DNA from: Microcoleus sp. FACHB-61
Lineage (GTDB): Bacteria > Cyanobacteriota > Cyanobacteriia > Cyanobacteriales > Microcoleaceae
DNA length: 64,000 nt
Direction of reading: 5' to 3'
NCBI GenBank assembly: GCA_014695295.1
Contig: JACJNY010000076.1
Span: forward strand, 1-64,000
The notes beneath the pieces are model-generated. The model saw only the letters and a program-made list of their open reading frames with translations. It searched no databases and had not been told where the DNA came from. The position numbers and the translations under genes are program-made. Positions 29,870 through 45,421 of the stretch are shown one piece after another (the stretch's first letter is position 1; each line of letters opens with the position of its first letter).

Positions 29870-30061
29870 TTAAACCACCAAAAAGTTCAATACACCCACT
29901 GCAATAACCAGCAAAAACCAGAGACCGGAACCCGCAACAATCAGCGCTTTAGATTGATTCCAGTTTTGGGGAGAGGCATAAGCAACCGGGACGCCAACGA
30001 CCATCACAAAAGACAGCAGTACCAGACCCAGTAAAACCACTTGAAACAGAATTGATAACAT
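29870..30061 (-). CDS. psbZ: Photosystem II protein PsbZ
   Basis: Thylakoid membrane protein of 63 residues with two membrane helices ([20 protein letters not shown] and [20 protein letters not shown]). The conserved [15 protein letters not shown] loop lies between them. PsbZ stabilises the PSII-antenna interface. The frame extends to 30130, but the AAAGGAG site at about 30068-30074 and the family start fix the ATG at 30061. The size matches the usual 62 residues. Confidence 0.95.
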
Positions 30062-30177
30062 CTTTTCTCCTTTCGATATAACCGTGCGTTGATCAGAAAT
30101 AGCTTCCCAGAACCGGAAAAAATCTTCCAAATTCTAGTTTTTGACAGTTTCCCGATAGCCGATCGAGAGATTGTCGG

Positions 30178-30396
30178 TTGATTGATAAGAAAGAACCCGT
30201 GCAAATTCGGGCGTTGCGCGAACCGGCGTCAGCGACTTTTGAGATTTTTATCAATTTTATCATTGTTCGTTACAGCACAGAAAACTGGATTCGATACTGG
30301 CTGAAGGTTAAGTTACAGTGCGATCGCCCGGTGTCGGATGCCGAGAAATTGCTACTCTGTGAGTTAGAGATGGGGAATGTTCAAGTATGGACTTAG
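30178..30396 (+). CDS. Small protein of unknown function overlapping the next start
   Basis: Protein of 72 residues (core ALREPASATFEIFINFIIVR, then SDAEKLLLCELEMGN). The only starts are TTG 30178 or nearby rare codons. Its stop overlaps the ATG of the gene at 30387 by 10 bases, suggesting translational coupling. The amino acid pattern is protein-like (amphipathic and Trp-containing). I do not recognise the family. Confidence 0.4.
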   Translation: MIDKKEPVQIRALREPASATFEIFINFIIVRYSTENWIRYWLKVKLQCDRPVSDAEKLLLCELEMGNVQVWT

Positions 30397-33329
30397 TTTT
30401 GTGCCACACAACAGCAGATTTTGACGCCTTGGGAGCGGCGGTGGGACTTTGCGTGCTGCGCCCCGGTAGCAGGATCGTCCTGACTGGCGGGAGTCACCCG
30501 ACGGTGCGGGATTTTTTGGCGCTACACCGCGACGAGTACCCACTGATTGAACGCCGATCGGTCAATCCGCAACAAATTCGATCGATTACTATAGTTGATG
30601 CCTCCCAGCGCGATCGCTTGGGAAAAGCCGCCGAGTGGCTGGATTTGCCGCACCTGAGCGAAATAGCGGTTTTCGACCATCACCTAGAGGCGCATTCAGA
30701 CATCCCCGCTACTGTTACCCAGATCGAAGCAGTCGGAGCCAGCACGACATTAATTGTCGAAAAGCTCAAAAATCAAGCAGAAAAGAGCGACACACCCTTC
30801 CGCCTGCTGCCTTCGGAAGCAACAGTAATGGCCCTCGGCATCCACGTCGATACAGGTTCCCTCACCTTTGAGGGCGCAACTGCGCGAGATGCAATAGCTT
30901 TGGCCTGGTTGATGGAACAGGGAGCGAGTTTGGGGGTAATAGCTGAATATGTAGAACCCGGTTTGTCTCCTCAATTGCAAGATTTGCTGAGAGAATCGCT
31001 GAATAATTTGCGATCGGAAACTTTACACGGTTACAGCGTAGCCTGGGTGCTGCTATCTACTGAAGCTTACGTTCCGGGGCTTTCTTCCCTGGCTTCTCGC
31101 TTGCTCGATTTAACTGAAAGCGATGCTCTGCTGTTAGGCAATGTTTATAACTTTGGCGAAAACGAAAACAACCGCAACATCGATCCCGAATCGCCAGTTT
31201 CCAATCGATTAACTATTATCGGTCGATCGCGCATCGAAGGAACAAACCTCAGCGAATTGTTCCAACCCCTCGGCGGCGGAGGCCACGCCCGCGCCGCTTC
31301 CCTCGCCACCCGCGATGTTGACCCGCTGCTGACTTTAAATCAGTTAGCTGACGAACTCAAAACTCAAATTCCCCACCCTCCGACAGCGCGCGAATTAATG
31401 TCGTCTCCGGTGCGGAGTATTCGCCCGGAAACATCGGTAGGGGAAGCTCACCGTATCCTCCTACGTTACGGACATTCGGGGCTTTCTGTGGTTGATGCGG
31501 ACGATCGACTCGCCGGCATTATCTCGCGCCGCGACATTGACATTGCCCTGCACCACGGTTTCAGTCACGCCCCGGTGAAGGGTTACATGACTCCGCAGCT
31601 AAAAACGATCGCCCCAGATACCTTGCTGCCGGAAATTGAATCTTTAATGGTGACATACGATATCGGGCGCTTGCCGGTATTGGAAAACGGTCAACTGGTG
31701 GGAATTGTGACTCGCACTGACGTGTTGCGGGAATTGCACCAGCAAAAAGCGCGAGACAGGGGAAGCAATGCAGAATTATCTTATTGTGCCGCGCCCGCAT
31801 CGGTTGAGCAGTTGTTGCGATCGCGCATCAGTCCCGAATTGTGGCAATTATTGTCGATCGCCGCCAATATTGCCCAAAACCGCGGCTGGCAACTTTATAT
31901 TGTGGGTGGAGCAGTCCGGGATTTACTCTTAGCCACGGATGATACACTGGCGCTCACAGATATTGATTTGGTTGTGGATGGAAAGTGCGCTTCCGACGAT
32001 TCCGGTGCCGGCGTCGAGTTAGCTGCATCACTGCAAAAACTTTACCCAGACTCGCGTTTGGACGTTCACGGTCAATTTCAAACCGCCGCGCTTTTGTGGC
32101 ACAAAGACTCTGCTTTCGGCTCGCTGTGGGTGGATATCGCTACGGCTCGCACTGAATTTTATCCTTATCCGGCTGCAAATCCTGAAGTAGAAGCGAGTTC
32201 GATTCGCCAAGATTTGTACCGCAGGGATTTTACAATTAATGCGCTGGCTGTGCGGTTGGGTGTTCCTCGCAGCGGCGAATTGTTAGATTTTTTCTGCGGT
32301 TTGCTGGATTTGGAATCGAAGCAAATTCGAGTTTTGCACGCCAATAGTTTTATCGAAGATCCGACGCGAATTTATCGCGCTGTGCGGTTTGCGGTGCGGT
32401 TGGGATTTGAAATTGAGCCGCAGACGGAAGGATACATCCGCAACGCTTTGGCCAGCGGGATTTATTACCGAATTCAGGGGGAAAACGGCCGAGCTCCGGC
32501 TTTGGAAACTCGGCTCAAAAGCGAATTGAAATACATTTTGCAAGCTCCTTACTGGAAAGTTGCTTTGCAAATGCTGGGAGATTTGCAGGCTTTGCGCTGC
32601 ATTCATCCTACTTTGGAGTTGGATCGGGAGTTGTGGCGGCAACTGCGTTTGCTCGATCGGTGTTTGCAAGGAAGGAAGAAGGAAGGTTCGGCAACGGATT
32701 CTGTAACGGATGTAACGGATGTCAGGAAGAAGGAAGAAGGAAGAAGGAAGAAGGAAGAAGGAAGAAGGAAGAAGGAAGAAGGAAGAGACAAGAAGGAAGA
32801 AGGAAGAGACGATTCCCTATTCCCCATTCCCCATTCCCCATTCCCCATTCCCCATTCCCCATTCCCCATTATCAATATTCCCGATTGGCAGATGCGACTG
32901 GAACTTTTGATAGCTTATTTAGCACCGGAATATCGCGGTAAGGTGGCTACAAATCTTCAGTTACCTGCTGACAGCATTAAGCGGTTGGAAGTTTTGGAAG
33001 TCGGAAAGAACCAGTTAGCTGAGGGTTTGCCGAAGTGCAACTTGCCGAGTCAATTGGTGCTGCTGTTGAGGAATTATGAATTGCCGGTGTTAATTGCGAT
33101 CGCCCTACAAAGTCCGCGAAGTGCACGCCTCCAAATTTGGGAATATCTCACCAGGTGGGCGAATGTTGAGCCACCTTTAAATGGCAACGATTTGAAGGCT
33201 TTGGGTTATAAGCCAGGGCCAGGGTTTAAACGAATGTTGGATGATTTGCTGGCGGCGAGGTTGGATGGCGATTTGGGCGATCGGGCTGCTGCTATCTCTT
33301 TCTTAGCACAACGGTACCCTCAAGCTTAG
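30387..33329 (+). CDS. DHH phosphoesterase - CBS pair - tRNA nucleotidyltransferase fusion
   Basis: Protein of 980 residues with three modules. Residues 1-330 are a DHH/DHHA1 phosphoesterase: DFDALGAAV (11-19), FDHH (96-99), GGGGHARAAS near 295. Residues about 335-455 are two CBS domains (MSSPVRSI; VKGYMTPQLKTI). From about 475 on is a class II poly(A) polymerase/CCA-adding domain with VGGAVRD and TDIDLVVDG, the two catalytic Asp being in DID. In Synechocystis the CCA end is built by separate CC- and A-adding enzymes of this class; which activity this one has cannot be read. Residues about 762-831 are a repeat-derived insert (see 32670). Confidence 0.85.
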   Translation: MDLVLCHTTADFDALGAAVGLCVLRPGSRIVLTGGSHPTVRDFLALHRDEYPLIERRSVNPQQIRSITIVDASQRDRLGKAAEWLDLPHLSEIAVFDHHLEAHSDIPATVTQIEAVGASTTLIVEKLKNQAEKSDTPFRLLPSEATVMALGIHVDTGSLTFEGATARDAIALAWLMEQGASLGVIAEYVEPGLSPQLQDLLRESLNNLRSETLHGYSVAWVLLSTEAYVPGLSSLASRLLDLTESDALLLGNVYNFGENENNRNIDPESPVSNRLTIIGRSRIEGTNLSELFQPLGGGGHARAASLATRDVDPLLTLNQLADELKTQIPHPPTARELMSSPVRSIRPETSVGEAHRILLRYGHSGLSVVDADDRLAGIISRRDIDIALHHGFSHAPVKGYMTPQLKTIAPDTLLPEIESLMVTYDIGRLPVLENGQLVGIVTRTDVLRELHQQKARDRGSNAELSYCAAPASVEQLLRSRISPELWQLLSIAANIAQNRGWQLYIVGGAVRDLLLATDDTLALTDIDLVVDGKCASDDSGAGVELAASLQKLYPDSRLDVHGQFQTAALLWHKDSAFGSLWVDIATARTEFYPYPAANPEVEASSIRQDLYRRDFTINALAVRLGVPRSGELLDFFCGLLDLESKQIRVLHANSFIEDPTRIYRAVRFAVRLGFEIEPQTEGYIRNALASGIYYRIQGENGRAPALETRLKSELKYILQAPYWKVALQMLGDLQALRCIHPTLELDRELWRQLRLLDRCLQGRKKEGSATDSVTDVTDVRKKEEGRRKKEEGRRKKEEGRDKKEEGRDDSLFPIPHSPFPIPHSPFPIINIPDWQMRLELLIAYLAPEYRGKVATNLQLPADSIKRLEVLEVGKNQLAEGLPKCNLPSQLVLLLRNYELPVLIAIALQSPRSARLQIWEYLTRWANVEPPLNGNDLKALGYKPGPGFKRMLDDLLAARLDGDLGDRAAAISFLAQRYPQA
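32670..32876 (+). repeat. In-frame insert of intergenic repeats in the tRNA nucleotidyltransferase
   Basis: Three repeat types follow one another in frame: an AAGGTTCGGCAACGGATT unit (32681 on), GAAGGAA/GAAGAAG units to about 32812, and ATTCCCC heptamers (32816-32871). They encode RKKEEGRRKKEEGR and then PHSPFPIPHSPFP. All three types also occur in intergenic gaps of this window (8507, 10981, 3109). Confidence 0.9.
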
Positions 33330-33333
33330 TAAG

Positions 33334-33388
33334 GTGCGTCAGCAGCGCGTTATTTTTTCTAGAATTGATTAGCTAATTGCTGACGCAC
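33334..33388. terminator. Inverted repeat after the fused tRNA nucleotidyltransferase gene
   Basis: GTGCGTCAGCA (33334-33344) pairs with TGCTGACGCAC (33378-33388). A related TGCATCAG...CTGACGCACC pair lies at about 22370-22430, so it is a dispersed element. It may end transcription. Confidence 0.5.
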
Positions 33389-33464
33389 TCTACTAAATTT
33401 TGAGTTTTCAATCCCAAACAGGCTAATCAGGCGATCGCACATTATTGATATTTCGATAATTAAG

Positions 33465-33549
33465 GTAAAGAAACATCCCGATCCTGGTTAAATCGCAATT
33501 GTCCTTTACAATTTTTTTTTACTCTTGACAGTAACTTCTATCGCTTTCC
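33465..33549 (+). pseudogene. DUF2127 membrane protein gene, N-terminal fragment
   Basis: The frame reads (V)KKHPDPG-stop-IAIVLYNFFLLLTVTSIAF and then meets the left end of an IS1-like element. The text matches the first membrane helix of cyanobacterial DUF2127 proteins (PGL.AIVLYK...LLAVTSIA type, from memory). GTA stands where a start codon is expected, and TAA replaces a Leu codon. The C-terminal part resumes in the same frame at 39015. The gene is dead. Confidence 0.72.
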
Positions 33550-34392
33550 GGCGTTGCTGGATTGAGGTATGATAGAGAGCGATCGAGAGTAAAAAAAAAA
33601 CATCAACCGAGAATTAAAATCAGTGGAATTTCCTGAATGTAAGTCAACTCATGTTCACAAGAAGGGACATAAAAAAGGCAAACAAAATTATCTTTGTGTT
33701 AACGGTGGTAGGCAATTTATAGATTGTTATGAAGCTCAGAAAGGATACGTAAAAGAAGTTAAACAACCATGCCTATCGATGTATGTTAATGGCATGGGAT
33801 TTCGAGCGATTGAGAGAGTGACAGGCGTACATAATACAACAATTATGGCTCTTGTTAAACAAGTAGGAGAACTGCTGCCAGATTATTACACTCCAGAGAC
33901 CATACCAGAAGTAGGAGAATTAGATGAACTAGAAACATTTGTTAAGTCAAAAAAAATAAAATTTGGTTGTGGACGGCAGTAAACCACTTTCAAGTAGGTA
34001 TTTTAGGGTGGGTGTTGGGAGATCATAGCGCTCAGACACTTAAACCTTTATGGGATGAGGTAGTTAGCAAATGGAAATGCTATTTTTATGTGACTGATGG
34101 ATGGAAGGTTTACCAAATGTTTATTCCAGATGGAGACCACATTGTTTGCAAAACTTACATGACCCGAGTAGAAGGAGAAGATACCAGACTCAGACACCCG
34201 GATAGCTCGCTTAAAAAGAAAAACTCTCTGTTATTCTCAATCAGACAGCAAGTTGCTCAAACATTCAATTCGATTACTAATTCACTATTCTTTTGTTTAA
34301 TAGTGTTCCCGTTCCCTATTCAATTAATCATTACGATCGAGTGAGATGAAGAGCGATCGCTCGCGCTTATCATACCTTAATCCAGCAACGCC
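33550..34392 (+). mobile_element. IS1-family insertion sequence, left copy
   Basis: 843 bases. Terminal repeats GGCGTTGCTGGATTGAGGTA (33550 on) and its complement ending at 34392 match at 24 of 25 bases. It contains an InsA-like frame and an InsB-like frame joined by a poly-A stretch. Confidence 0.85.
33623..34344 (+). pseudogene. IS1-family transposase (InsA/InsB), decayed
   Basis: InsA part (GTG 33623): zinc-finger-like start with FPECKSTHVHKKGHKKGKQN, HTH in NGMGFRAIERVTGVHN. InsB (DDE) part: LWTAVNHFQVGILGWVLGD and YFYVTDGWKVYQMFIPDGD. Eight A at 33949-33956 would allow -1 slippage to read through as ETFVKSKKNKIWLW. InsB loses its proper frame near 34198 (HP then RIARLKRK in another frame) and again near 34300, so it is inactive. 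Confidence 0.8.
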
Positions 34393-35033
34393 ATGACATC
34401 ACATAACTCTCATTATTCAACCTTACGTCTTTTACTGTTTAATTTCTCCTTGGTTGCAGGTGTTTAAGATTCCTGGCTTCCAACGAGGGTTTCTCAAGTT
34501 AATCAACTTCATGAATCACTTTCGGGTTTCTCCTGCTACTTTGGCGATCGCTGTATGAGTGTTCTGCCTGATTTTACTCTCCCCGAAGTAACAAAAGAGG
34601 GATTAGAAGTGACCCAGGCTTTGCCTAATTTGATACGAACTCGGCAATGTTAGAGCAGGGGTCTGACCAGCTACTCCAGTTCAATCTTCCCCGAAAAAAA
34701 TCGCTCTCCAATAAGCGGGCATTTTTTCAAAAAGGTTTGAGGGCAATGAATCTGATCCAAGCAGCTTTTGGGCTGTTGGTTTTTGCCCTCGTTCAACAAA
34801 GTAAGAGGGAAGGCGAGGTGTACCTCGCCTTCCCCCCCTGTTGATGATTGTCATTATTGATAATCACTTGGCTCAACTGCTCATTCTCAATAGCCCGGTC
34901 AATAAGTGGCATTTTTTGAGGACTCAAGTGGATGAAAATCAAGCTCTGTCAATCTTTTGAGCCGATTGTCACTTTTTGAAGAAGTTTAGAATTCCTGTAG
35001 GAGAGGTCGGAAAGCCTGCATAGTCTATGCACA
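34393..35033. other. Gene remnants and a hairpin between IS1 copy and P450
   Basis: No intact gene. Short protein-like stretches (for example VLPDFTLPEVTKEGLEVTQ near 34558 and FPGFQRGFLKLINFMNHF-like codons near 34470) suggest decayed transposase sequence. A hairpin with 12-bp arms GGAAGGCGAGGT (34808-34819 and 34822-34833) is present. Confidence 0.4.
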
Positions 35034-36284
35034 TTAGAACTTTACGGGCAGCGAATCGAATCCCTTGAAAACTAGGCTGGTATGTCTGGGAATCGCTGGC
35101 TTATCGGGATTGAACTTGAGATTCGGTAGTCTTCTAAGTAATGTGGTGAAACAAATAGTTAACTCCATGCGAGCTAAAACGGCTCCTAGACAAAAGTGAA
35201 TGCCCGGAGCAAACCCAAGGTGTTCGTTGGGCGATCGCATAATATTGAAAACTTCCGGTGAGTTAAACTTTTCCGGATCATGATTCGCTGCCCCAAGTCC
35301 CAAAGCGATGACGCTACCCGCCGGGATGTCCTTACCGCCAATCGTCAGGTCTTGTTTAGCAATCCGAAAGAGAAAAGGAACGGCAGTATCGAAACGGATC
35401 ACTTCTTCCACAGCAGAATTGATTAAAGCCGGATTTTCTTGCAGTTTTTGCAGTTGATCCGGATGATGCAGCAGCGCATTCACCCCATTGGGAATCAGGT
35501 CTGTGGTAGTCAAATGAGCTGCATTTGAGATCATGACGCATTGAGATACCAGCTCCTCAAGATTAAAGCCCTGCTCTTCGTATGCCATAGTCAGCAGGCT
35601 AATCATGTCCGTTCCCGGTTGCCGTCGCCGTTCTTCGATCAACTGCCTGATGAATTCAGAAAACTGTGCGATTGCGAAGTCTGCCTTGCGTGCATATTCC
35701 TCAATATTTGAACTGCCCGGTGCACCCCAAAATGTAGCTATATCGACCCCCCATTTGAGCACGTTCGCTCTGTCAGCTTCTGGTACGCCAAATAGCTCAG
35801 CAGTAATAAGTCCTGGTAATATCACCGACAAATCGGAGACAACATCCATACAGCCGTCATTTTCAACATTATCCAACAAGCGATCGGTAGTGTTCTGGAT
35901 AATGGAGCGCCAGCTTTCTATAGCTCGTGTTGTAAATCCCTGATTGGCTAACTTCCGCACTCGGGTGTGATCTGGTGGATCTCTCTCAATTATCGATTTT
36001 GAGGTCACCCGAATAAAATTCTGGATCAGGTTGATATCCAAAGAACCCAATTGATTGATAAATAACGCTGTCCGGTCCGAACTCAAACGCTCATCCCCTA
36101 GAGCCGCTTCAACATCTCTGTAGCGTGTCAAAACCCAGTATCCGAAAGACTCACTATAATGAACCGGGTCTTCTTCACGCATCCGTTTGTAGAGTGGATA
36201 GCGATTGAGCAGAGCTTCTGGTGAAAACAGATCATACGATTGCGGGTTTGCGAATCCTGTCATATTCTTCTGTTGTGAATTCAT
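35034..36284 (-). CDS. Cytochrome P450
   Basis: Soluble bacterial-type P450, about 416 residues from ATG 36284 (MNSQQKN); ATG 36263 is equally possible and the frame is open to 36389. The haem loop FAPGIHFCLGAVLARME has the thiolate Cys. ExxR is EEVIRFD. In helix I the usual A-G/H-(E/D)-T reads AAHLTTTDL, so the acidic partner of the Thr is Leu. The N-terminal DLFSPEALLNRYPLYKRMRE is typical. No ferredoxin or reductase gene is nearby. It lies inside the IS1 composite, so it is a candidate transferred gene. Substrate unknown. Confidence 0.88.
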   Translation of the reverse strand: MNSQQKNMTGFANPQSYDLFSPEALLNRYPLYKRMREEDPVHYSESFGYWVLTRYRDVEAALGDERLSSDRTALFINQLGSLDINLIQNFIRVTSKSIIERDPPDHTRVRKLANQGFTTRAIESWRSIIQNTTDRLLDNVENDGCMDVVSDLSVILPGLITAELFGVPEADRANVLKWGVDIATFWGAPGSSNIEEYARKADFAIAQFSEFIRQLIEERRRQPGTDMISLLTMAYEEQGFNLEELVSQCVMISNAAHLTTTDLIPNGVNALLHHPDQLQKLQENPALINSAVEEVIRFDTAVPFLFRIAKQDLTIGGKDIPAGSVIALGLGAANHDPEKFNSPEVFNIMRSPNEHLGFAPGIHFCLGAVLARMELTICFTTLLRRLPNLKFNPDKPAIPRHTSLVFKGFDSLPVKF

Positions 36285-36394
36285 TTGCTTAATCTGAATT
36301 AGGAGTGAACTAAAAAAATTGAGGTAGTCAGGCGATCGCGTTAGCGGTAGCGAGTGTGACGCTCGTTCCTCTCTATGGCTTCGCCTCAAGAGCG

Positions 36395-36718
36395 TCAGCG
36401 GTAGCAGTGGAGATGAGAGTAAGCATCTTCGAGCGTCAGCGCAGATCGCGAATGGTTAAGACTTACGTATTCACAGAAATTTGGCCGCCGCCCATCTCCC
36501 AAGGTTTCTGGTCCAATACGGTTGTATCCCCACACCCACTCATAAATCCAACTGCGGCTGTAGCCTGTCACCTCTGCTACTTCAGCGCTGCTGTAACCTT
36601 GAGCCAATAACCAAATTATTTGGTAATGGGTGCGCTCTACTGGAGCTTTTGCTCCTCGGTAGCGCTTTTCTAGCTCATCTATACTCAGGTGCAGTTCGAT
36701 ACTCAGGCGTTTCGGCAT
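36395..36718 (-). pseudogene. IS630-type transposase, N-terminal HTH fragment
   Basis: The first 80 codons (LSIDELEKRYRGAKAPVERT, then IIWLLAQGYSSAEVAEVTGYSRSWIYEWVWGYN and DGRRPN) match the helix-turn-helix start of IS630-type transposases. The DDE domain is missing and the last 25 codons are unrelated. It is a truncated remnant. Confidence 0.7.
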
Positions 36719-36901
36719 TGCAAAGATGCATAGTTCTCCCCAGCGATTATATTATGGTTAATCAACCCGACATGATATTAACCCAAAAGGACGCCTACTT
36801 AGATCCTATCCGAAAACTCCTTTCAGTATGACTCTTTATCTGTGTTAAACTGAAAAACGACCCCGTTGCGGTTCGAGTTGAGCGAGCGATCACTTAATAT
36901 A

Positions 36902-37040
36902 TTATATGCCGCACAAATAGCGATCCCGGTTCGCTTGAGCTGCCTTCAATCCTTCCGTTAAAAGCGATTGCGCTTTGTCTAGCTCTCCTTAAACGCAATA
37001 GCATCTGTGAAAAAGAGCAGCAGATTCAGCTTTTAAGGGT
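36902..37040 (-). pseudogene. Decayed tetratricopeptide-like fragment
   Basis: The - strand frame ending at 36902 reads GELDKAQSLLTEGLKAAQAN before RDRYLCGI and a stop, a TPR-like helix pair. The codons preceding it are out of frame (ESAALFHRCYC near 37020-37040). It is probably the tail of a lost regulator. Confidence 0.35.
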
Positions 37041-37206
37041 CAACTGTAGAGAATTATGTATCCTTTTGCTTTTTCCCAATAGCCGTTCAGGTCAACAGTA
37101 GCAAAATCGTTAGCTTTTTCCTAATTTTTTTATGTTGACTTTTCAATCTTTAAGGGTTTAAATAGAAATCAAGTATTCATTGCTTTTCACTTACATTGAG
37201 GAATAA

Positions 37207-38145
37207 ATGATGTTTAATCCTTTAGTTAATCCAAAAATAGAAAAAGATTTATATTCCATAATTTGCGATTTAATTGATATAAATAAGCCCTATTATGCGC
37301 TTCAAAATCTATCTGAAACTGGGAATGAAGAAGTTTATGCAGAAATTGATGTAGAGCGTCTTGAACATAATGAAGTTTCGCCAATTTCACAGGCAGAAGC
37401 AGGTCGTCACCTTGCGATCTTGGGTTCTTGTGCGTTGAGTCTCATAAATAAAAAGAAATCAAAACACTACTATCTTGCTAGTAAGGCATCTACCTTATTA
37501 CACACCTCTGACATTAGTCAATTCAATGGACAGCAACGAAGAAGATTGAAATGTTTTGCTAAGGCTATTCACTTAGATGAGAAGACTAGGACGGGTTCAG
37601 TATCATCCAGAATTTATACAGAAAATGATCAGTTAATATCGACTCTCGATCTCACCTACTTGATTTTACAGGAGGCTTTGTTTCAAAAAATGTTTAGACG
37701 ACAACAAACAAAAGCACTTCAAGACAACCTCATAGTTGATAACCCATACAAATTTCCTGTAACGCTAAAGGAAATTAGCATTACGGAAAATAGGCTGAAT
37801 TGCAATTTAGGTAAGATTGAGCCTTATCAATGTATTGGACACTTCCCCAACTATCCTGCTCTCCCTGTTGCTATTTTAAGTTCAGCTCTTTTATATTCTG
37901 CTGAAATATTTTTAAAGTCTCGATATCCTGAATGCTGGAAAATTAGAATCAATCAAGTTAGTCTTATAGCAGAAAAGCTAGCTTTTGCGGGAGAACAAGT
38001 TCATATCGAAACTAATTTGCTTGAGTCTAGTGGAAAAACTTACCACTTTTCATGCAATGCTCTTGACGAAGACAAAAATCTTATTGGCAAACTTTATACT
38101 TCAATTGATGTGATAACTCAATCTGATATAAGTAGGTGCAGGTAA
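37207..38145 (+). CDS. Double-hotdog (FabZ/thioesterase-like) protein of unknown role
   Basis: Protein of 312 residues. The N-terminal half carries EVSPISQAEAGRHLAILGS and LKCFAKAIHLDEKTRTGSVS, like a degenerate hotdog repeat. The C-terminal half has GHFPNYPALPVAILSSALLY, which parallels the HFPGxPxxPG helix of FabZ-type dehydratases, then strands KIRINQVSLIAEKLAFAGEQ and SCNALDEDKNLIGKL. A two-hotdog acyl-ACP or acyl-CoA handling protein is inferred. Codon use is more AT-rich than neighbours. It is cargo of the IS1 composite and may have worked with the P450. No family name is certain. Confidence 0.6.
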   Translation: MMFNPLVNPKIEKDLYSIICDLIDINKPYYALQNLSETGNEEVYAEIDVERLEHNEVSPISQAEAGRHLAILGSCALSLINKKKSKHYYLASKASTLLHTSDISQFNGQQRRRLKCFAKAIHLDEKTRTGSVSSRIYTENDQLISTLDLTYLILQEALFQKMFRRQQTKALQDNLIVDNPYKFPVTLKEISITENRLNCNLGKIEPYQCIGHFPNYPALPVAILSSALLYSAEIFLKSRYPECWKIRINQVSLIAEKLAFAGEQVHIETNLLESSGKTYHFSCNALDEDKNLIGKLYTSIDVITQSDISRCR

Positions 38146-38158
38146 ATAAAGTAAAAAT

Positions 38159-39014
38159 GGCGTTGCTTAATTGAGGTATGGTTGAACTATCGAGTGAAAG
38201 AGCCAGAAAATAATGAACATTAAATCAGAATCAATGGAATGTCCTGAAGGTAAGTCAAGTGATGTCAATAAAAATTGGCATAAAAGAGGTAAACAGAATT
38301 ATATATGTGTTGACTGTGGCAGGCAATTTATAGACTGTTATCAATCGCGGGGTTATGCAGAAGAAATTAAACCTGAATGTCTCTCAATGTATGTAAATGG
38401 CATGGGTTTTCGAGCCATTGAGAGAATTAAAGGAGTACATCACACCAGCATTATAAATTGGGTCAAGCAAGTAGGAGAATGGCTCCCTGATGCTTACGAA
38501 CCAGACACAATTCCCCGGGTGGGAGAACTTGAAGAACTAGAAACGTTTGTTGGTAAAAAAAAATAAGATCTGGCTATGGACAGTGGTAAATCACTTTCAA
38601 CCAGGGATTTTAGGATGGGTATTGGGAGATCGTGCGTGCTACAACTTTTCGACCACTATGGGAGGCGCGTGGGCAATTGGAAATGTTACTTTTATATCAC
38701 AGATGGATGGCCAGTTTACCCCATGTTTATTCCCGATGGAGACCAAATTATCTGTAAAAGTTACATGACCCGAGTAGAGGGGGAAAATACGCGACTACGA
38801 CATTACGCAAGCCCGGCTTCATCGCAAGACACTTTGCTATTCTAAGTGGGGAGAGATGCTCAAACATTCAATTCGGTTAGTAATACATTATCTTAAGTTT
38901 TGGGATGTTCCGGTTCCCTATCCAGGGTATCATTTCACTCGCGCTTAAACCAGGCAAATCGGGTAGCCAAAACATCCATTGATCGCACTTATCATACCTA
39001 TATTCAGCAACAGC
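38159..39014 (+). mobile_element. IS1-family insertion sequence, right copy
   Basis: 856 bases. Terminal repeats are GGCGTTGCTTAATTGAGGTA (38159 on) and the complement of TATACC...CAGCAAC ending at 39014, diverged to roughly 16 of 20 matches in the inner part. It has the same layout and orientation as the left copy. Confidence 0.8.
38213..38948 (+). pseudogene. IS1-family transposase (InsA/InsB), decayed
   Basis: InsA: MECPEGKSSDVNKNWHKRGK, CVDCGRQFIDCYQ, NGMGFRAIERIKGVHH. A run of nine A at about 38557 could shift -1 into KKKNKIWLWTVVNHF. InsB then breaks at about 38645 (GDRAC to FDHYGRRVGNWKCYF in another frame) and again at about 38812 (RLRHY to QARLHRKTLCYSKWGEMLKH). It is inactive. Confidence 0.8.
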
Positions 39015-39387
39015 CGCTTTTCTTTCTGCCGTAAATAATCATCAATCTTTAGAGAATTTTGCGCCATCTTATTTGTTACAAAGCCAACTAAAAATTGTTG
39101 AACAATTATTAGACAAATTTTTAAGTATTAAGCCTAACACCTTACTGTTTAGCAGAATTGCTGCCGCACTGTATGCAGTTTTAACTGCTATTGAAGCGGT
39201 TGCCTTATGGTACGAAAAAAGCTGAGCAACACTCTTAGTTTTAGTGCTGCTAGGGCTCAGTATCCCCCCTGCAATATATGAGTTATTTGAGGGTGTCACG
39301 CTACTTAAGTTAGCGGTATTTATCGCAAATCTAGCCGTCTTAGGGTATTTGCTAGACCATTTGCCGAAGCACCGTAAGGGATCTTAA
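39015..39387 (+). pseudogene. DUF2127 membrane protein gene, C-terminal fragment
   Basis: The frame resumes as AFLSAVNNHQSLENFAPSYL, continues RIAAALYAVLTAIEAVALWY, then TGA replaces the Trp of a conserved KSWA, and goes on LLVLVLLGLSIPPAIYELFE to LDHLPKHRKGS and a stop. With the 33465 fragment it rebuilds a DUF2127 protein of about 150 residues with four membrane helices. Confidence 0.75.
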
Positions 39388-39973
39388 AGTTCTGATGATT
39401 CAGAGGAAACTCATTTGGCTTAATAAATGTCAGCATCTTCAATCAGTAGCCACTTTACCATTTTATTTGTGATGCGTTTACCTGATTATTTTAAGTGTCA
39501 ATATGAAATATTCAACTCTTCGGGCGCATTCTTGAGTGTATTCATAGTGTTTTTCATTTTTAATCATAGTTTTCACGCTCTTTATTTCCCCAAGCTGAAG
39601 ATCGCCTTTTTGCAGTTATTATCACAATATTGCTTGAAAGTCAAATAAAAATCTAAATCTTTACAGAAACCGAGCATTTGTAAAGATTTATAAAAGAAAA
39701 GAGGGGTGATACCCCCCATCAGCTATAGTCAAATAAATAGATGCACCCTGATGGCTTTCCCGTTCCACAAGAGCGGGATTTTTATTGGAAAGGAAAGCCG
39801 GAGCGTTAAGTTTCACCATACCTACTACAGATAAAATGACGTGGGGATGCAAAGATTAAAGACATAGCAGAGCTAAAGCTAAAACAAGGGCGCAGCTCGA
39901 TCGAACCTCACCCCAAACTCTGCGAAATAACCCAAAGGCGGTAGCATAGTTTGGGAAACGGCATCAACTGAAG
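39388..39973. other. Gap upstream of the kinase gene
   Basis: No convincing gene. GGCTTTCC (39752-39759) and GGAAAGCC (39791-39798) could pair around a smaller CCCG...CGGG stem followed by ATTTTTATT, a possible terminator on the + strand. Confidence 0.4.
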
Positions 39974-41539
39974 ATGAACTTAGCGCCAGCAACAGTCCTG
40001 CAACAGGGCAAATACATAATTAACGCGACTTTAGGCATAGGAGGGTTCGGGATCACTTACCGAGCTATCAACACCCATTTAAACCAAACCGTCGTACTCA
40101 AAACCCTCAACGAAAGTCTGCGCCAACACCCAGAATCTGCCCAATTTCAGCAGCAGTTTATTGCCGAAGCCCAACGCCTGTCGCGGTGTCAGCATTCCAA
40201 CATCGTCAGAGTAATCGACTTTTTTGAAGAAGCCGGACAGTCTTTTATCGCAATGGACTACATTCCCGGCCAAACTCTCGCCCAAATAGTCGAAACCGAT
40301 CAGCCACTGCCAGAAGCCCAGGCCCTGCACTACATTCGGCAAATAGCCTCAGCCGTAAGTACAGTTCATCACAGCGGATTGCTGCACGGAGATATCAAGC
40401 CAGAAAATATTATCCGGCGAGCCGATTCTCACCTCGTAATGTTAATAGACTTCGGTATTGCCCGCGGCTTTACCGCCGGCACCAAACAGACCCACACTAA
40501 CTTGCTCTCCCCCGGGTACGCGCCGATTGAACAATACCTCTATGACGGTAAATGTACACCGGCCACAGACATCTACGCGATCGCAGCCACCCTCTACTAC
40601 TTACTTTCGGGCGTGGCGCCCGTAGCAGCACCCCTGCGCGATCGCATTCCCCTGGTCGAGTTGCGGCAATTTCAGCCCAATCTCAGCGCGGGAATTGAGC
40701 GAGCTATCCTTCAGGGACTCGAAATCGACCCCCACAACCGCCCTCAGACAGTGGAAAATTGGCTCACCATGCTGCAAGAAACAGAGCGAGTATCAGCAAA
40801 CAGAAAAGGCAAGCAAAGTCTGCGATTGCCTGCACCTCCCCCGCCGCAGTTGACTTTGCTGGCGTTTGTCGTAACGGCTGCAATTGCAGGCTGGATGGGT
40901 TTTGACCTGGCTTGGCGCTACAACAGCAGCAGTCTCAGCAGCAATCGACCCCAAATTGAATCCTTCCCATCTCTCGAAGATTTGCTCAAATCGCGCGATT
41001 TGTCAGGGCCCATGTTCCGGCAGCCGTCTGTCGAAAGCAGCCCTCTCTACCCGATCGAACTCAACAAGCTCCCCAAACCCCCCTTAGAAAGCAGCAACAT
41101 TCCCGAACCGATCGATCCCTCAGAAACTAGCGCCGAACCTTCTGAGTCCCCAAGCCCGGAAACTCTCGCTCCAGAGCCCGAAGCGGAACCTGAGCCATCC
41201 CCGACGCCAGAGCCCCCAGAGGAGCCTTCTGAGTCCCCTATTCCGGAGCCTCAAACCGAAATCGAGCCAGCACCCCAACCAGAAGCAGCACCGGTACCGG
41301 AAGTTGCGCCCCTGCCTGCTGAACAGCCCCCCGCACCCGCCCCGTCTGCCCCTGAGAGTGCTGAAACCTTACCACCCTCGGAATCCGCGCCGCCAGTAAT
41401 AGCGTCGCCGATCGAGCGATCGCCTGAACCTGCGATACCGAGCCGCAGCGGCAGCAATTCAGATAGTTCGATCGAACCTTACTCACCACCCCCTGTGGCA
41501 GAGCCCACTGTGCCTATTCCTGAACCTGCCGCAAATTAG
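39974..41539 (+). CDS. Serine/threonine protein kinase with Pro/Glu-rich tail
   Basis: Protein of 521 residues. A Hanks-type kinase domain spans about 14-275: glycine loop GIGGFGITYRA (21-31), Lys43 in VVLKTL, HGDIKPEN (138-145) and DFG (159-161). The catalytic loop has Gly in place of the usual Arg of HRD, so it is a non-RD kinase. A membrane segment LLAFVVTAAIAGWMGFDLAW lies at about 296-315. The rest, about 200 residues, is a Pro/Glu/Ser-rich tail, probably outside the cytoplasm. A PP2C phosphatase gene lies 3 kb downstream. Confidence 0.88.
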   Translation: MNLAPATVLQQGKYIINATLGIGGFGITYRAINTHLNQTVVLKTLNESLRQHPESAQFQQQFIAEAQRLSRCQHSNIVRVIDFFEEAGQSFIAMDYIPGQTLAQIVETDQPLPEAQALHYIRQIASAVSTVHHSGLLHGDIKPENIIRRADSHLVMLIDFGIARGFTAGTKQTHTNLLSPGYAPIEQYLYDGKCTPATDIYAIAATLYYLLSGVAPVAAPLRDRIPLVELRQFQPNLSAGIERAILQGLEIDPHNRPQTVENWLTMLQETERVSANRKGKQSLRLPAPPPPQLTLLAFVVTAAIAGWMGFDLAWRYNSSSLSSNRPQIESFPSLEDLLKSRDLSGPMFRQPSVESSPLYPIELNKLPKPPLESSNIPEPIDPSETSAEPSESPSPETLAPEPEAEPEPSPTPEPPEEPSESPIPEPQTEIEPAPQPEAAPVPEVAPLPAEQPPAPAPSAPESAETLPPSESAPPVIASPIERSPEPAIPSRSGSNSDSSIEPYSPPPVAEPTVPIPEPAAN

Positions 41540-42061
41540 TATTGTTTTTGTTGGTTAAAAGTGCGGACAAATACTTGATTTTATGAGTCAGCAAATATCG
41601 GCTCGGTAGGGGAGATAATACTGCTTTTTCTAGCCAACGACTATCTCGCAAAACCTTCGATCCAATCGGACAATGGCAACAGTCACCGTCTGAGTTTATC
41701 CAATATTTCCTATTCCCTCTGCAATCCAAATGCCCGCATCAAAAAAAAGCAGGAATGTTTGATATTTTGATTTGAATTATGTTATAATAGGTACCCGAGG
41801 CTGAGGTAGTGTCATGTCGTTTATTACTGTTGCCAAGCTTCAAACATTTTTGTACAAAGCAACCCCAACATCGAATTTCAGCGAGTGTCAGCCAGGCTTT
41901 TTGGCTAAGCCGTTGCGCCTTAGACTGTTCAAATTCTCAACAATCCCATCCCCGACAAAGGGGTGAGATTGTCAATTGCCCCAAACTTCCTTCCTTTGGG
42001 AGCAAGCATCATCGGGGACAAGCAAGTTATAATTTGTTGCGGAAGCGCATAGAGATTTTTT
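41540..42061. other. Gap upstream of the DUF6825-like gene
   Basis: No reliable gene. An 86-codon frame at 41809 has no homology I recognise. The AT-rich stretch 41755-41795 with TTGATT...TATAAT (TATAAT near 41784) is a fair + strand promoter candidate. Confidence 0.4.
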
Positions 42062-42391
42062 ATGACTAAACCCCCAGTTCATGCTTTTTTTGTAGGCAGA
42101 GCACTTGCCGAAGCACTGTACGAGCAATTAGAAAGCGCAGCAACCAACGCCTTCTCTGAACTCGGTAAATTTGACGCAGAACAAAGAGAACGCCTGCGAC
42201 AGTTCACCGATCGAGTTGTGGAACGGGCAAACAGAGCTGCGGATGAGGCGGTGCAGACCAGAACTGGCACTGCAACCACCACCATTCAAGACATCCATCC
42301 CGCAGAGTTGCAAGCGACTATTGACGAGCTGCGCGCCGAAGTGGCGATGGTGCGATCCCAATTGCAGCGCTACCGCAGCAGTTTGCCCTAG
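42062..42391 (+). CDS. Conserved cyanobacterial protein, DUF6825-like
   Basis: Helical protein of 109 residues: VHAFFVGRALAEALYEQLES, ELGKFDAEQRERLRQFTDRV, and a C-terminal coiled coil ELQATIDELRAEVAMVRSQL. It resembles a cyanobacterial and plastid family (DUF6825) of unknown function, recalled from memory. The ABC1 kinase gene follows 102 bases downstream on the same strand, so both may be in one transcript. Confidence 0.7.
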   Translation: MTKPPVHAFFVGRALAEALYEQLESAATNAFSELGKFDAEQRERLRQFTDRVVERANRAADEAVQTRTGTATTTIQDIHPAELQATIDELRAEVAMVRSQLQRYRSSLP

Positions 42392-42493
42392 CGCTCGATC
42401 CGACCACAACTATTATTTACGACTACGTGAGCGCAAAGCACTGCGCTCCTGCGCTCCTACCTGCAATCAAAGCAACAACATAAAATAAGCAAT

Positions 42494-44272
42494 TTGGGAA
42501 CCCAAGTGTCTGCTCTCCTTGATGACTCTGTTAATCGCCAGCGCTCCAGAAAGCACGCTGGCGACGGCGATGAGCCAAAAACTGCTGGTAAATCCTACAA
42601 AAGTAAAGCTTATCGCTGGAATCGCGAAAAATACTCTCGAAAGCGACGCTTCTTCGATATTTGGGCCTTTGTCTTGCTCTGGCTGGCTTCGCTGTGGCTC
42701 GACAGCAAAAATTGGAGCTACTGGGGAGGCGTGACTGAAGAAAAGAAAGTTGCCAGACGCCGCTTTCAAGCTATCTGGGTTCGAGAAACACTCTTGGAAT
42801 TGGGGCCCACTTTCATTAAAGTTGGGCAGTTATTTTCCACCCGCGCCGATTTGTTCCCGGCAGAGTTTGTCGAGGAACTTTCTAAGCTGCAAGATAAAGT
42901 GCCTGCTTTCAGCTACGAGCAGTTAGAGGTAATTGTTGAGCAAGATTTGGGCAAGACAGTTCAAGAACTTTACCGCAGCTTTGACCCGGTGCCCCTGGCC
43001 GCAGCAAGTCTGGGCCAGGTACACAAAGCTCAACTGCATTCGGGCCCGGAAGTGGTGGTCAAGGTGCAGCGACCGGGACTGCGGAAGCTGTTCGAGATCG
43101 ATTTGCAAATTCTTAAGGGAATTGCCCGCTACTTTCAAAACCATCCTAAGTGGGGCCGCGGCCGAGATTGGATGGGGATTTATGAGGAATGCTGTCGCAT
43201 TCTGTGGCTGGAAATTGACTATCTCCATGAAGGCCGCAATGCTGATACTTTTCGCCGCAATTTTAGCAACTGTGACTGGGTGCGGGTGCCGAGGGTTTAT
43301 TGGCGGTACGCGGCTCCGCGAGTGCTGACTTTGGAATACCTGCCCGGGATTAAAATCAGCCACTACGAAGCTTTGGAAGCGGCCGGTATCGATCGTAAAT
43401 TAATCGCTCAGTTGGGGGCAAAAGCTTATTTGCGGCAGTTGCTCAACGACGGCTTTTTCCACGCTGACCCACACCCCGGCAACATCGCTGTTAGTGCTGA
43501 CGGTTGTCTGATTTTCTACGATTTTGGCATGATGGGGCAAATCCAGTCGAACGTCCGCGAAGGACTGATGGAGACGCTCTACGGCATTGCTTCCAAGGAT
43601 GGACAGCGGATTATGGATTCTCTGATCAATTTGGGAGCTTTGGTGCCTACGGGTGATATGAGTCCGGTGCGCCGATCGATCCAGTATATGCTCGACCACT
43701 TCATGGACAAGCCTTTTGAAAATCAGTCGGTGAGCGCGATTACGGACGACCTTTACGATATTGCCTACAACCAACCTTTTCGCTTCCCAGCTACTTTTAC
43801 TTTTGTAATGCGAGCTTTTTCTACCATCGAAGGGGTGGGCAGAGGTTTAGATCCCGAGTTCAACTTTATGGAGGTGGCACAACCTTTTGCCATGCAGCTT
43901 ATGAGTAATGGAAATGGTCATGATACAGGTAGCAGCATTTTTAACGAAATCGGCCGTCAGGCAGCTCAGGTGAGTTCGACTGCTTTGGGTTTGCCCCGCC
44001 GGATTGAGGAGACTATTGACAAACTCGAACAGGGAGATTTGCGGATTCGCGTCCGTTCTGCCGAAACAGAGCGCTTGCTCCGCCGCATGAGCAGCGCTCA
44101 AATGGGCACGAACTATGCTTTGCTGATGAGTGCTTTTACTTTGTCGGCGACAATTTTGTTTGTCAGTAATCAAGTCTGGCCGGCTGTGGCTGTGGCAGTG
44201 CTGGCGGCGGGTGCAGGGTTTGCTCTTATGCGTTTGTTCAAGCGGATCGATCGTTTAGACAGGATGTCATAA
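42494..44272 (+). CDS. ABC1/AarF/UbiB family atypical kinase
   Basis: Protein of up to 592 residues. Diagnostic motifs are ELGPTFIKVGQLFSTRADLFP (KxGQ), the Ala-rich AAASLGQVHKAQL, KVQRPG, DYLHEGRNADTFRRNF, NDGFFHADPHPGN and YDFGMMG. Two C-terminal hydrophobic helices (YALLMSAFTLSATILFV and VWPAVAVAVLAAGAGFAL) suggest membrane association. Family members control quinone, lipid or thylakoid metabolism. The start is uncertain: TTG 42494 or GTG 42506, with no good ribosome site. Confidence 0.88.
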   Translation: MGTQVSALLDDSVNRQRSRKHAGDGDEPKTAGKSYKSKAYRWNREKYSRKRRFFDIWAFVLLWLASLWLDSKNWSYWGGVTEEKKVARRRFQAIWVRETLLELGPTFIKVGQLFSTRADLFPAEFVEELSKLQDKVPAFSYEQLEVIVEQDLGKTVQELYRSFDPVPLAAASLGQVHKAQLHSGPEVVVKVQRPGLRKLFEIDLQILKGIARYFQNHPKWGRGRDWMGIYEECCRILWLEIDYLHEGRNADTFRRNFSNCDWVRVPRVYWRYAAPRVLTLEYLPGIKISHYEALEAAGIDRKLIAQLGAKAYLRQLLNDGFFHADPHPGNIAVSADGCLIFYDFGMMGQIQSNVREGLMETLYGIASKDGQRIMDSLINLGALVPTGDMSPVRRSIQYMLDHFMDKPFENQSVSAITDDLYDIAYNQPFRFPATFTFVMRAFSTIEGVGRGLDPEFNFMEVAQPFAMQLMSNGNGHDTGSSIFNEIGRQAAQVSSTALGLPRRIEETIDKLEQGDLRIRVRSAETERLLRRMSSAQMGTNYALLMSAFTLSATILFVSNQVWPAVAVAVLAAGAGFALMRLFKRIDRLDRMS

Positions 44273-44668
44273 TTGTGCAATTTGGGATTTGAAATTTCAG
44301 GTTTGAGATTTCTCGCCAGCCAAAATTTGACCTCGAATGTTAAGTTTTGGCTGGCTGACAACAGATTGCTAAAATTTACCGCACTTAGAGGCTTTGACGC
44401 TAACAACCCGGTTGCTTCCTAGATTTCTCCCCAGCCAAAACTCTGAGTTTGGGTAGAAATCCAGTTTTTTTTTGCAGCCACGGCTTAATTTACTGGATTT
44501 ACCGAAATTTTAAGACGGGATTACCATCATAACGATCTACAATATGAGGTCAAGGAAGTGCAATTTTTCCCAAACTCTCGATCGCAGGTGGCAGAAATTT
44601 CAAGTCCCCTTTGCGATTTAAGTTTTGGAAGAAAACATTGCACCACTTAAATCAAACTTTTAAGTTCG
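44273..44668. other. Gap between ABC1 kinase and PP2C genes
   Basis: No gene seen. Repeated CCAGCCAAAA motifs occur at 44318, 44433 and as the complement near 44348. It should hold the PP2C promoter. Confidence 0.4.
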
Positions 44669-45421
44669 ATGAGTCCAATCAGGCAATCTATGAAACGCTC
44701 TTTCGCAGGTAAGACAGACACAGGGCTAGTTCGTTCAGTAAATCAGGATTCATACTACATAGACTCTGACGGGCGATTTTTCATAGTGGCCGACGGGATG
44801 GGAGGACACGCCGGAGGTCAAGAAGCCAGCCGGATTGCGACTCAGGCGATTCAATCTTATTTGCTCGAACATTGGGAAGGGCCTGAGGATTCTCCGCTGT
44901 TGTTGGAAAAGGCTTTTTTAATTGCCAATCAAGCAATTTTGACGGATCAGCTAGACCACCCTGAGCGTGCTGATATGGGCACTACGGCTGTGGTTCTCAT
45001 GTTTAGGGATGAGGGCCAACCTTGGTGCGCTAATATCGGGGACTCTCGCTTATACCGGCTGCACGGCTCTCGCTTAGAGCAGATTACTGAAGACCAGACA
45101 TGGGTGGCTCAGGCTGTGAAAAGAAAGGCCCTAACTCCCGACCAGGCTCGCAGTCATCCTTGGCGTCACGTTTTGTCCCAGTGTTTGGGTCGCGATGATG
45201 TGCGGGAAATAGATATTTTGCCGGTGGAGGTGCAGCCTGGGGATCGCTTGCTGCTGTGCAGCGACGGCTTGACTGAGGAACTTTCCGATCCTTTGATTGC
45301 TTCGCCTCTGAAGTCGATTCGCGCCTGCGAGGGCGCTGCAACTGCTTTGATTCAAGCAGCTAAGGATAAAGGGGGACGCGATAATATTACTGTGGTGATC
45401 GTGACGCTCGACCTTAAATAA
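44669..45421 (+). CDS. PP2C-type protein phosphatase
   Basis: Protein phosphatase of 250 residues that should reverse Ser/Thr phosphorylation. Metal-binding motifs are all present: RSVNQDSYY, VADGMGGHAGG, GTTAVVL, GDSRLYRL, SDGLTEELSD and GGRDNITVV. ATG 44690 (MKRSFAGKTDTG) is the commoner family start; ATG 44669 adds seven residues. Two kinase-like genes nearby (39974, 42494) make a local signalling group possible, but they are not obviously one operon. Confidence 0.9.
   Translation: MSPIRQSMKRSFAGKTDTGLVRSVNQDSYYIDSDGRFFIVADGMGGHAGGQEASRIATQAIQSYLLEHWEGPEDSPLLLEKAFLIANQAILTDQLDHPERADMGTTAVVLMFRDEGQPWCANIGDSRLYRLHGSRLEQITEDQTWVAQAVKRKALTPDQARSHPWRHVLSQCLGRDDVREIDILPVEVQPGDRLLLCSDGLTEELSDPLIASPLKSIRACEGAATALIQAAKDKGGRDNITVVIVTLDLK

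Follow-up and report, generated by a model that had tools for sequence, protein, structure and literature searches.

A 5,465-bp block in the genome of the cyanobacterium Microcoleus sp. FACHB-61 splits a DUF2127 gene at positions 33550-39014 of the window, by which we mean the whole 64,000-nucleotide stretch analysed here (contig JACJNY010000076.1, assembly GCA_014695295.1). Two insertion sequences (IS) of the IS1 family, IS A on the left and IS B on the right, bound the block in like orientation, and between them lie a cytochrome P450 gene and a gene for a hotdog-like protein. Our analysis makes it very probable that the block is an old composite transposon of IS1 type, which was inserted as one unit and is now unable to supply its own transposase. 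In what follows, G-codes denote the genomes compared, C-codes contigs (the window contig being C74) and L-codes loci or fetched stretches. The features that define the insertion are these:

33474..33549, + strand: 5' piece of the DUF2127 gene, bearing one in-frame stop (TAA) and a small deletion
33542..33549, no strand: left copy of the target duplication, CGCTTTCC
33550..34392, + strand: IS A, an IS1-family copy of 843 bp, both ends present and 24/25 alike
38159..39014, + strand: IS B, an 856-bp IS1-family copy with ends 18/25 alike and several frameshifts
39015..39022, no strand: right copy of the target duplication, CGCTTTTC
39015..39387, + strand: 3' piece of the DUF2127 gene, with an in-frame TGA

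The interrupted gene and its empty site

The DUF2127 frame halts at the left edge of the block (33549) and resumes at its right edge (39015), and the frame read through both pieces matches Pfam PF09900 with an E-value of 3.1e-25. The possibility of another DUF2127 gene elsewhere in the Microcoleus genome was rejected: the read-through frame, used as query, gave two matches, both at the window locus and corresponding to the two pieces themselves, and no second copy.

A DUF2127 match was found in 32 of the 98 genomes searched, our own included. Among 28 other genomes of the genus, some of whose assemblies are incomplete, the gene is full-length and open in 16 (counting G023, whose TAG we took as the terminal stop), decayed in three (G002, G018 and G020), present as short pieces in G011, G014 and G026, and unmatched in six. 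Each of the 16 open loci has at least one of the window's two neighbour genes in the fetched stretch; the left neighbour is present in 14/16 and the right in 14/16, one of the latter by a weak match. We aligned the joined window flanks with 19 loci, the 16 open and the three decayed copies, leaving out the three short pieces, and in all 19 relatives the alignment is free of gaps for 20 columns on either side of the junction. The target reads CGCTTTGC in 7 of these relatives. The interruption described by the first-pass annotation was thereby borne out in relatives, where DUF2127 stands uninterrupted at the corresponding locus, with the same neighbour gene on either side; neither an intact DUF2127 gene at another locus with P450 and hotdog genes at this one, nor junctions unlike the empty site, were seen.

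The 7/8 junction repeat that the same annotation had reported, CGCTTTCC at 33542-33549 against CGCTTTTC at 39015-39022, was also recovered. The sole difference falls at position 7, where 17 of the 19 relatives carry G and two carry A; since the window copies carry C and T there, both copies must have mutated, and the duplication measures 8 bp. Paired in the other five ways, the four IS flanks agree at 0, 0, 1, 2 and 3 of 8 positions. A 7/8 match arose in 220 of 400,000 random draws of 8-mer pairs from window positions 30000-45000, and in 218 of 350,464 pairs around the two junctions, which puts its chance at about 6e-4. A chance duplication was rejected on these pair statistics together with the ungapped junction in all 19 relatives. 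For comparison we tested 12 other IS1 copies, namely the fetched ones with both ends placeable; two of them, L062 and L064, have common flanks and are probably one insertion. Perfect 8-bp duplications flank two of the 12, one on our own contig C41 (TAAATACA) and one in G020 (GATTTTAC), both belonging to the group of IS B.

The DUF2127 gene itself has also decayed in the close relatives G002, G018 and G020, apparently independently of the window: the window TAA is not common to these three, and the window TGA is absent from G018 and G020, while G002 is without that stretch. The gene seems dispensable, because, besides its decay in these three relatives, it is partial or has no match in a further nine of the 28. 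Its neighbours, used above as markers of the locus, are:

30387..33329, + strand: left neighbour gene, which we take to be of the CCA-adding/CBS-DHH type
39974..41539, + strand: right neighbour gene, presumably of the Ser/Thr kinase type

Inside the left neighbour gene, at about 32640-32900 of the window, RRKKEEG and IPHSPFP repeats make up a low-complexity stretch that keeps the reading frame.

The two IS and their transposase frames

IS A retains two overlapping transposase frames:

33623..33982, + strand: insA-type frame, matching NF033558 at 107.7 bits (cutoff 100)
33967..34344, + strand: insB-type frame, at -1 relative to insA and disrupted in its C-terminal part by one additional base near 34200

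Alone, the InsB product of IS A scores 87.3 bits against NF033558, below the same cutoff, and 36.9 against PF03400 (cutoff 24.1). The InsB piece of IS B reaches 21.3 against PF03400, below cutoff; IS B was assigned to the IS1 family from the similarity of its DNA to other copies. The single break of IS A is the additional base near the C-terminus of InsB. IS B is broken at that spot as well, and the N-terminal part of its InsB carries additional frameshifts. Because the transposase genes of both are broken, the block cannot now supply its own transposase unless the frames are recoded.

The shared spot in InsB (34190-34210 and 38798-38815) holds seven bases instead of six in both IS. The count is also seven in IS1 copies from other genomes, and the sequences there are unlike (TTACGCAA, CCGGATA). 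Over the 36 codons 3' of this spot, nonsynonymous divergence (dN) is lower than synonymous divergence (dS) in 17 of 21 pairs among seven copies of the IS B group, with three pairs showing the reverse and one a tie; the spot may be a hotspot of mutation or a second site of recoding. The relation of the insB to the insA frame is -1 in IS A, L060 and L061. In L003, L066 and L071, copies of the IS B group from our own C41 and, twice, from G020, the insB frame is offset from insA by +1 (or -2) at the A run.

Copies of G020, G021, G028 and our own C41 form a group with IS B at 82-87% identity, and IS A falls in another clade. In a sliding comparison over their length, neither IS looked like a hybrid of the two types. 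Judged by their sequences, IS A and IS B are different IS1 types and not two copies of one IS. The directly oriented pair of IS1-like copies with inverted ends that had been described from the sequence thus stands as to orientation and ends, with the qualification that the two are only 73% identical, belong to different clades and have both lost an intact transposase. Within our own genome, the best long matches of IS A reach 73-74% and those of IS B 83%, and one end piece of about 300 bp reaches 91%. The C41 copy of the IS B group has open insA and insB frames in addition to its 8-bp duplication, and its open frames make it a candidate transposase source. Elsewhere, IS1 copies are split by inserts of about 1.1-1.4 kb, in our own C38 (85865-88074) and in G020:C1 (5072558-5074590 and 1383879-1385819); these are probably nested insertions.

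The cargo and its paralogs

The interior of the block is a patchwork that includes a remnant of an IS630-type element:

34393..35033, no strand: interior debris with no clear gene and only short matches elsewhere in the genus
35034..36287, - strand: cytochrome P450, an open frame with the heme-Cys motif HLGFAPGIHFCLG; the start of the open reading frame (ORF) may lie as far as 36389
36395..36718, - strand: helix-turn-helix part of an IS630-type transposase remnant, above cutoff for Pfam HTH_29 and at 29 bits for NCBIfam IS630 (cutoff 100, not reached)
37207..38145, + strand: open frame for a hotdog-like protein of 312 amino acids, from a rare family, with a FabZ-like C-terminal half and the conserved His of the GHF motif

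Hotdog dehydratases of the FabZ type employ a catalytic His and Glu. The profile of our hotdog family matches FabZ over its C-terminal half (E 2.7e-4) and retains the GHF His, and other residues occupy the FabZ Glu column. Of the double-hotdog gene proposed by the first-pass annotation, only the C-terminal half is therefore supported, as FabZ-like; a single-sequence structure model was unusable, with a mean predicted local distance difference test score (pLDDT) of 37.2.

Relatives of the cargo are scarce. The hotdog gene has no match in the other 97 of the 98 genomes searched, and the P450, at 1e-60, none in the other 58 of 59. In a sample of 386 genomes from the phylum, there are two matches to the hotdog gene besides its own, in G122 (1.6e-43) and weakly in G248 (6e-4), and the P450 has two at 1e-100, one of them in G122, where the relatives of the two genes lie on different contigs. 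A plasmid search with the hotdog gene returned three Deinococcus records at 22-27% identity, and a scan of the contigs of the named genomes found no hotdog relative. Relatives of the P450 were placed at 33 named loci, the best in Coleofasciculus sp. S288 (79%, on a 3.5-kb contig), Brasilonema angustatum (77%) and Nostoc foliaceum (63%); the seven best are from cyanobacterial genera, and the other 26 are more distant, at 27-39% identity. None of the 33 loci contains a hotdog match at 1e-4, and the genes next to the P450 differ in the six for which ORFs were listed. A Nostoc linckia plasmid, typed as conjugative, carries a DNA relative of the P450 at 70%, and the 20 listed of 24 plasmid records with a match are all named as cyanobacterial genera. 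Since the cargo is absent in the genus and the P450 is present in Coleofasciculus and Brasilonema, we infer from these distributions that the cargo may have reached the Microcoleus lineage horizontally.

Our own genome holds paralogs of both genes, the P450 diverging from its C63 paralog with a dN of 0.15 and a dS of 0.40, and the hotdog gene from its C58 paralog with 0.16 and 0.27. The C58 paralog belongs to a unit of 2,686 bp (L052 7214-9901), in which the cargo lies between two miniature inverted-repeat transposable elements (MITEs) with TA at both outer ends; the two inverted repeats are about 104 bp long and 99% alike. The unit contains the hotdog paralog, a middle gene that we take to be lipocalin-like, and the 5'-terminal 115 nt of a P450, which are 95% identical in DNA to the window P450 (Coleofasciculus, 90% there); no transposase gene was recognised inside it. 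Both flanks were found joined in three of 26 relative loci compared (G008, G013 and G019), where they meet at TA in an empty site, and the other 23 aligned with one flank or none. The C58 unit entered as a unit at a TA. On C63, the P450 paralog (L053 8282-9758) lies between two genes presumed to encode an ATP-binding cassette (ABC) transporter and a mannitol-dehydrogenase-like protein, which adjoin each other in G002.

No IS1-type match was detected within the 18-kb stretches around the C58 and C63 paralogs, other IS not having been searched for at the C63 edges. A search for the same cargo between IS1-like copies elsewhere, as the first-pass annotation had suggested, thus came back empty: the cargo is absent from the other genomes searched, and both paralogs are without an IS1-type match. 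We give an even chance to a broader reading, by which one lineage of P450 and rare hotdog cargo would have been inserted twice in this genome by two unrelated composites, a mixed IS1 pair with an 8-bp duplication on C74 and an inverted pair of IS630-type MITEs with TA on C58, with a third P450 relative in a sugar-transport operon on C63. In the IS1 case, the transposase would have acted on the ends of two IS1 types, and therefore the IS of a composite would not need to match closely.

Origin of the block and comparison with known systems

The ungapped junction in relatives and the 8-bp duplication at the outer edges argue for the arrival of the block as a single unit, with the left end of IS A and the right end of IS B as its outer limits. 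Two different IS1-family elements would have come to flank the P450 and the hotdog-like gene in like orientation. An IS1-type transposase would then have used the outermost ends, which are 20/25 alike, and moved 5,465 bp into the DUF2127 gene, duplicating 8 bp of target, both copies of which would later have mutated at position 7. An intact relative copy may have supplied the transposase, or else IS A or IS B themselves before they decayed, and all of the present interior probably travelled in this single event. The earlier proposal that the whole unit moved once accordingly gains support from the empty site, the outer-only duplication and the IS A-to-IS B boundaries.

Several observations weigh against this account. 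IS A and IS B are 73% identical overall and 66-77% per 150-column block, whereas the copies in composites are usually near-identical, and the right end of IS B, GCAACAGC, departs from the GCAACGCC of most other copies. The block exists in one copy only, with no second copy of the whole, and the IS630-type remnant and the debris could postdate the insertion. In addition, 10 of the 12 other IS1 copies have no duplication of at least 7/8, even with ends shifted by up to 3. The absence of a duplication around each single IS, which the first-pass annotation had noted and which the 0-3/8 agreement of the other flank pairings confirms, is consequently weak evidence; the common outer duplication is strong evidence for insertion of the unit.

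The interior leaves some room for a history in which a smaller element, with both IS and other or less DNA between them, was the original insertion, and the arrival or rearrangement of the P450, hotdog or IS630 pieces followed. Its patchwork nature, with the IS630-type remnant, would fit such a history, as would the orientation of the two genes, divergent in the window and in the same direction on C58. We nevertheless consider it unlikely, as no duplication or boundary marking a later arrival of the P450 or the hotdog gene was seen, and the hotdog gene and a P450 piece occur together on C58 too, which argues for prior linkage.

The same outer duplication would also be predicted if a single IS1 had entered DUF2127 and a circle with the cargo and a second IS1 had followed by homologous recombination, a route that has no direct support otherwise. 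Recombination would yield A/B hybrids or two like copies, but each IS keeps one type, and their 27% difference is too large for ordinary recombination; the sliding comparison of IS A with IS B led us to reject this origin, which we regard as very improbable. Slightly less credit still is due to two independent IS1 insertions with an unrelated gene gain and a coincidental 8-mer match. Two neighbouring IS without duplications of their own would not be odd, given how many other copies have none, but the match has the low chance calculated above, and joined flanks that align without gaps to every relative are not expected from independent insertions. An assembly artefact at repeated IS might be suspected in a genome of 81 contigs; we find it scarcely conceivable, as no near-identical long copy of either IS turned up in our search of the genome and the flanks continue one reading frame.

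By its structure, then, the block is a composite transposon, a new case with a mixed IS pair of a kind already known: two IS flank it, and one target duplication surrounds it at an otherwise empty site. Tn9 is a composite with one outer target duplication, and composites usually have near-identical IS copies, although this is not known to be strictly required; the IS here, of different clades and 73% identity, are not two copies of one element. The block resembles IS1 composites of the Tn9 type and the ISAba3 platforms (IS1/Tn9 and the IS1-family ISAba3 platform appear in PMC9330008) in its two IS1-family copies round passengers and its one outer duplication. It differs from them in the low identity of its IS, both of which are broken, in its P450 and hotdog passengers, and in its cyanobacterial host.

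Within the IS1 family, the likeness extends to InsA- and InsB-like frames round an A run, matches to the transposase models NF033558 and PF03400, ends about 25 bp long, and a duplication in the size range of about 8-9 bp. The IS1 target duplication is usually 9 bp, and those found here, at the block and at two of the 12 other copies, are 8 bp. The IS1 frameshift is placed at A6C in PMC12428005, and the three IS B group copies read differ in having insB at +1/-2 instead of -1. The C58 unit is comparable to other MITE-bounded units in that its cargo lies between two inverted repeats and entered at TA; it differs in its metabolic-type cargo, its cyanobacterial host and the lack of a recognised transposase gene inside. 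A MITE at the origin of mcr-5 acquisition is the subject of a title in the reference list of PMC10969869.

No title among the literature matches listed concerns an IS1 composite in a cyanobacterium, although we do not claim its absence from print. To our knowledge, composite transposons have been described mostly with resistance genes. The present block provides a composite documented by its empty site and duplication, which carries metabolic-type genes in a cyanobacterium between two IS1 types differing by 27%. Together with the C58 MITE unit, it offers a natural test case for how far paired IS ends may differ, as well as for the spread of orphan P450 genes among cyanobacteria.

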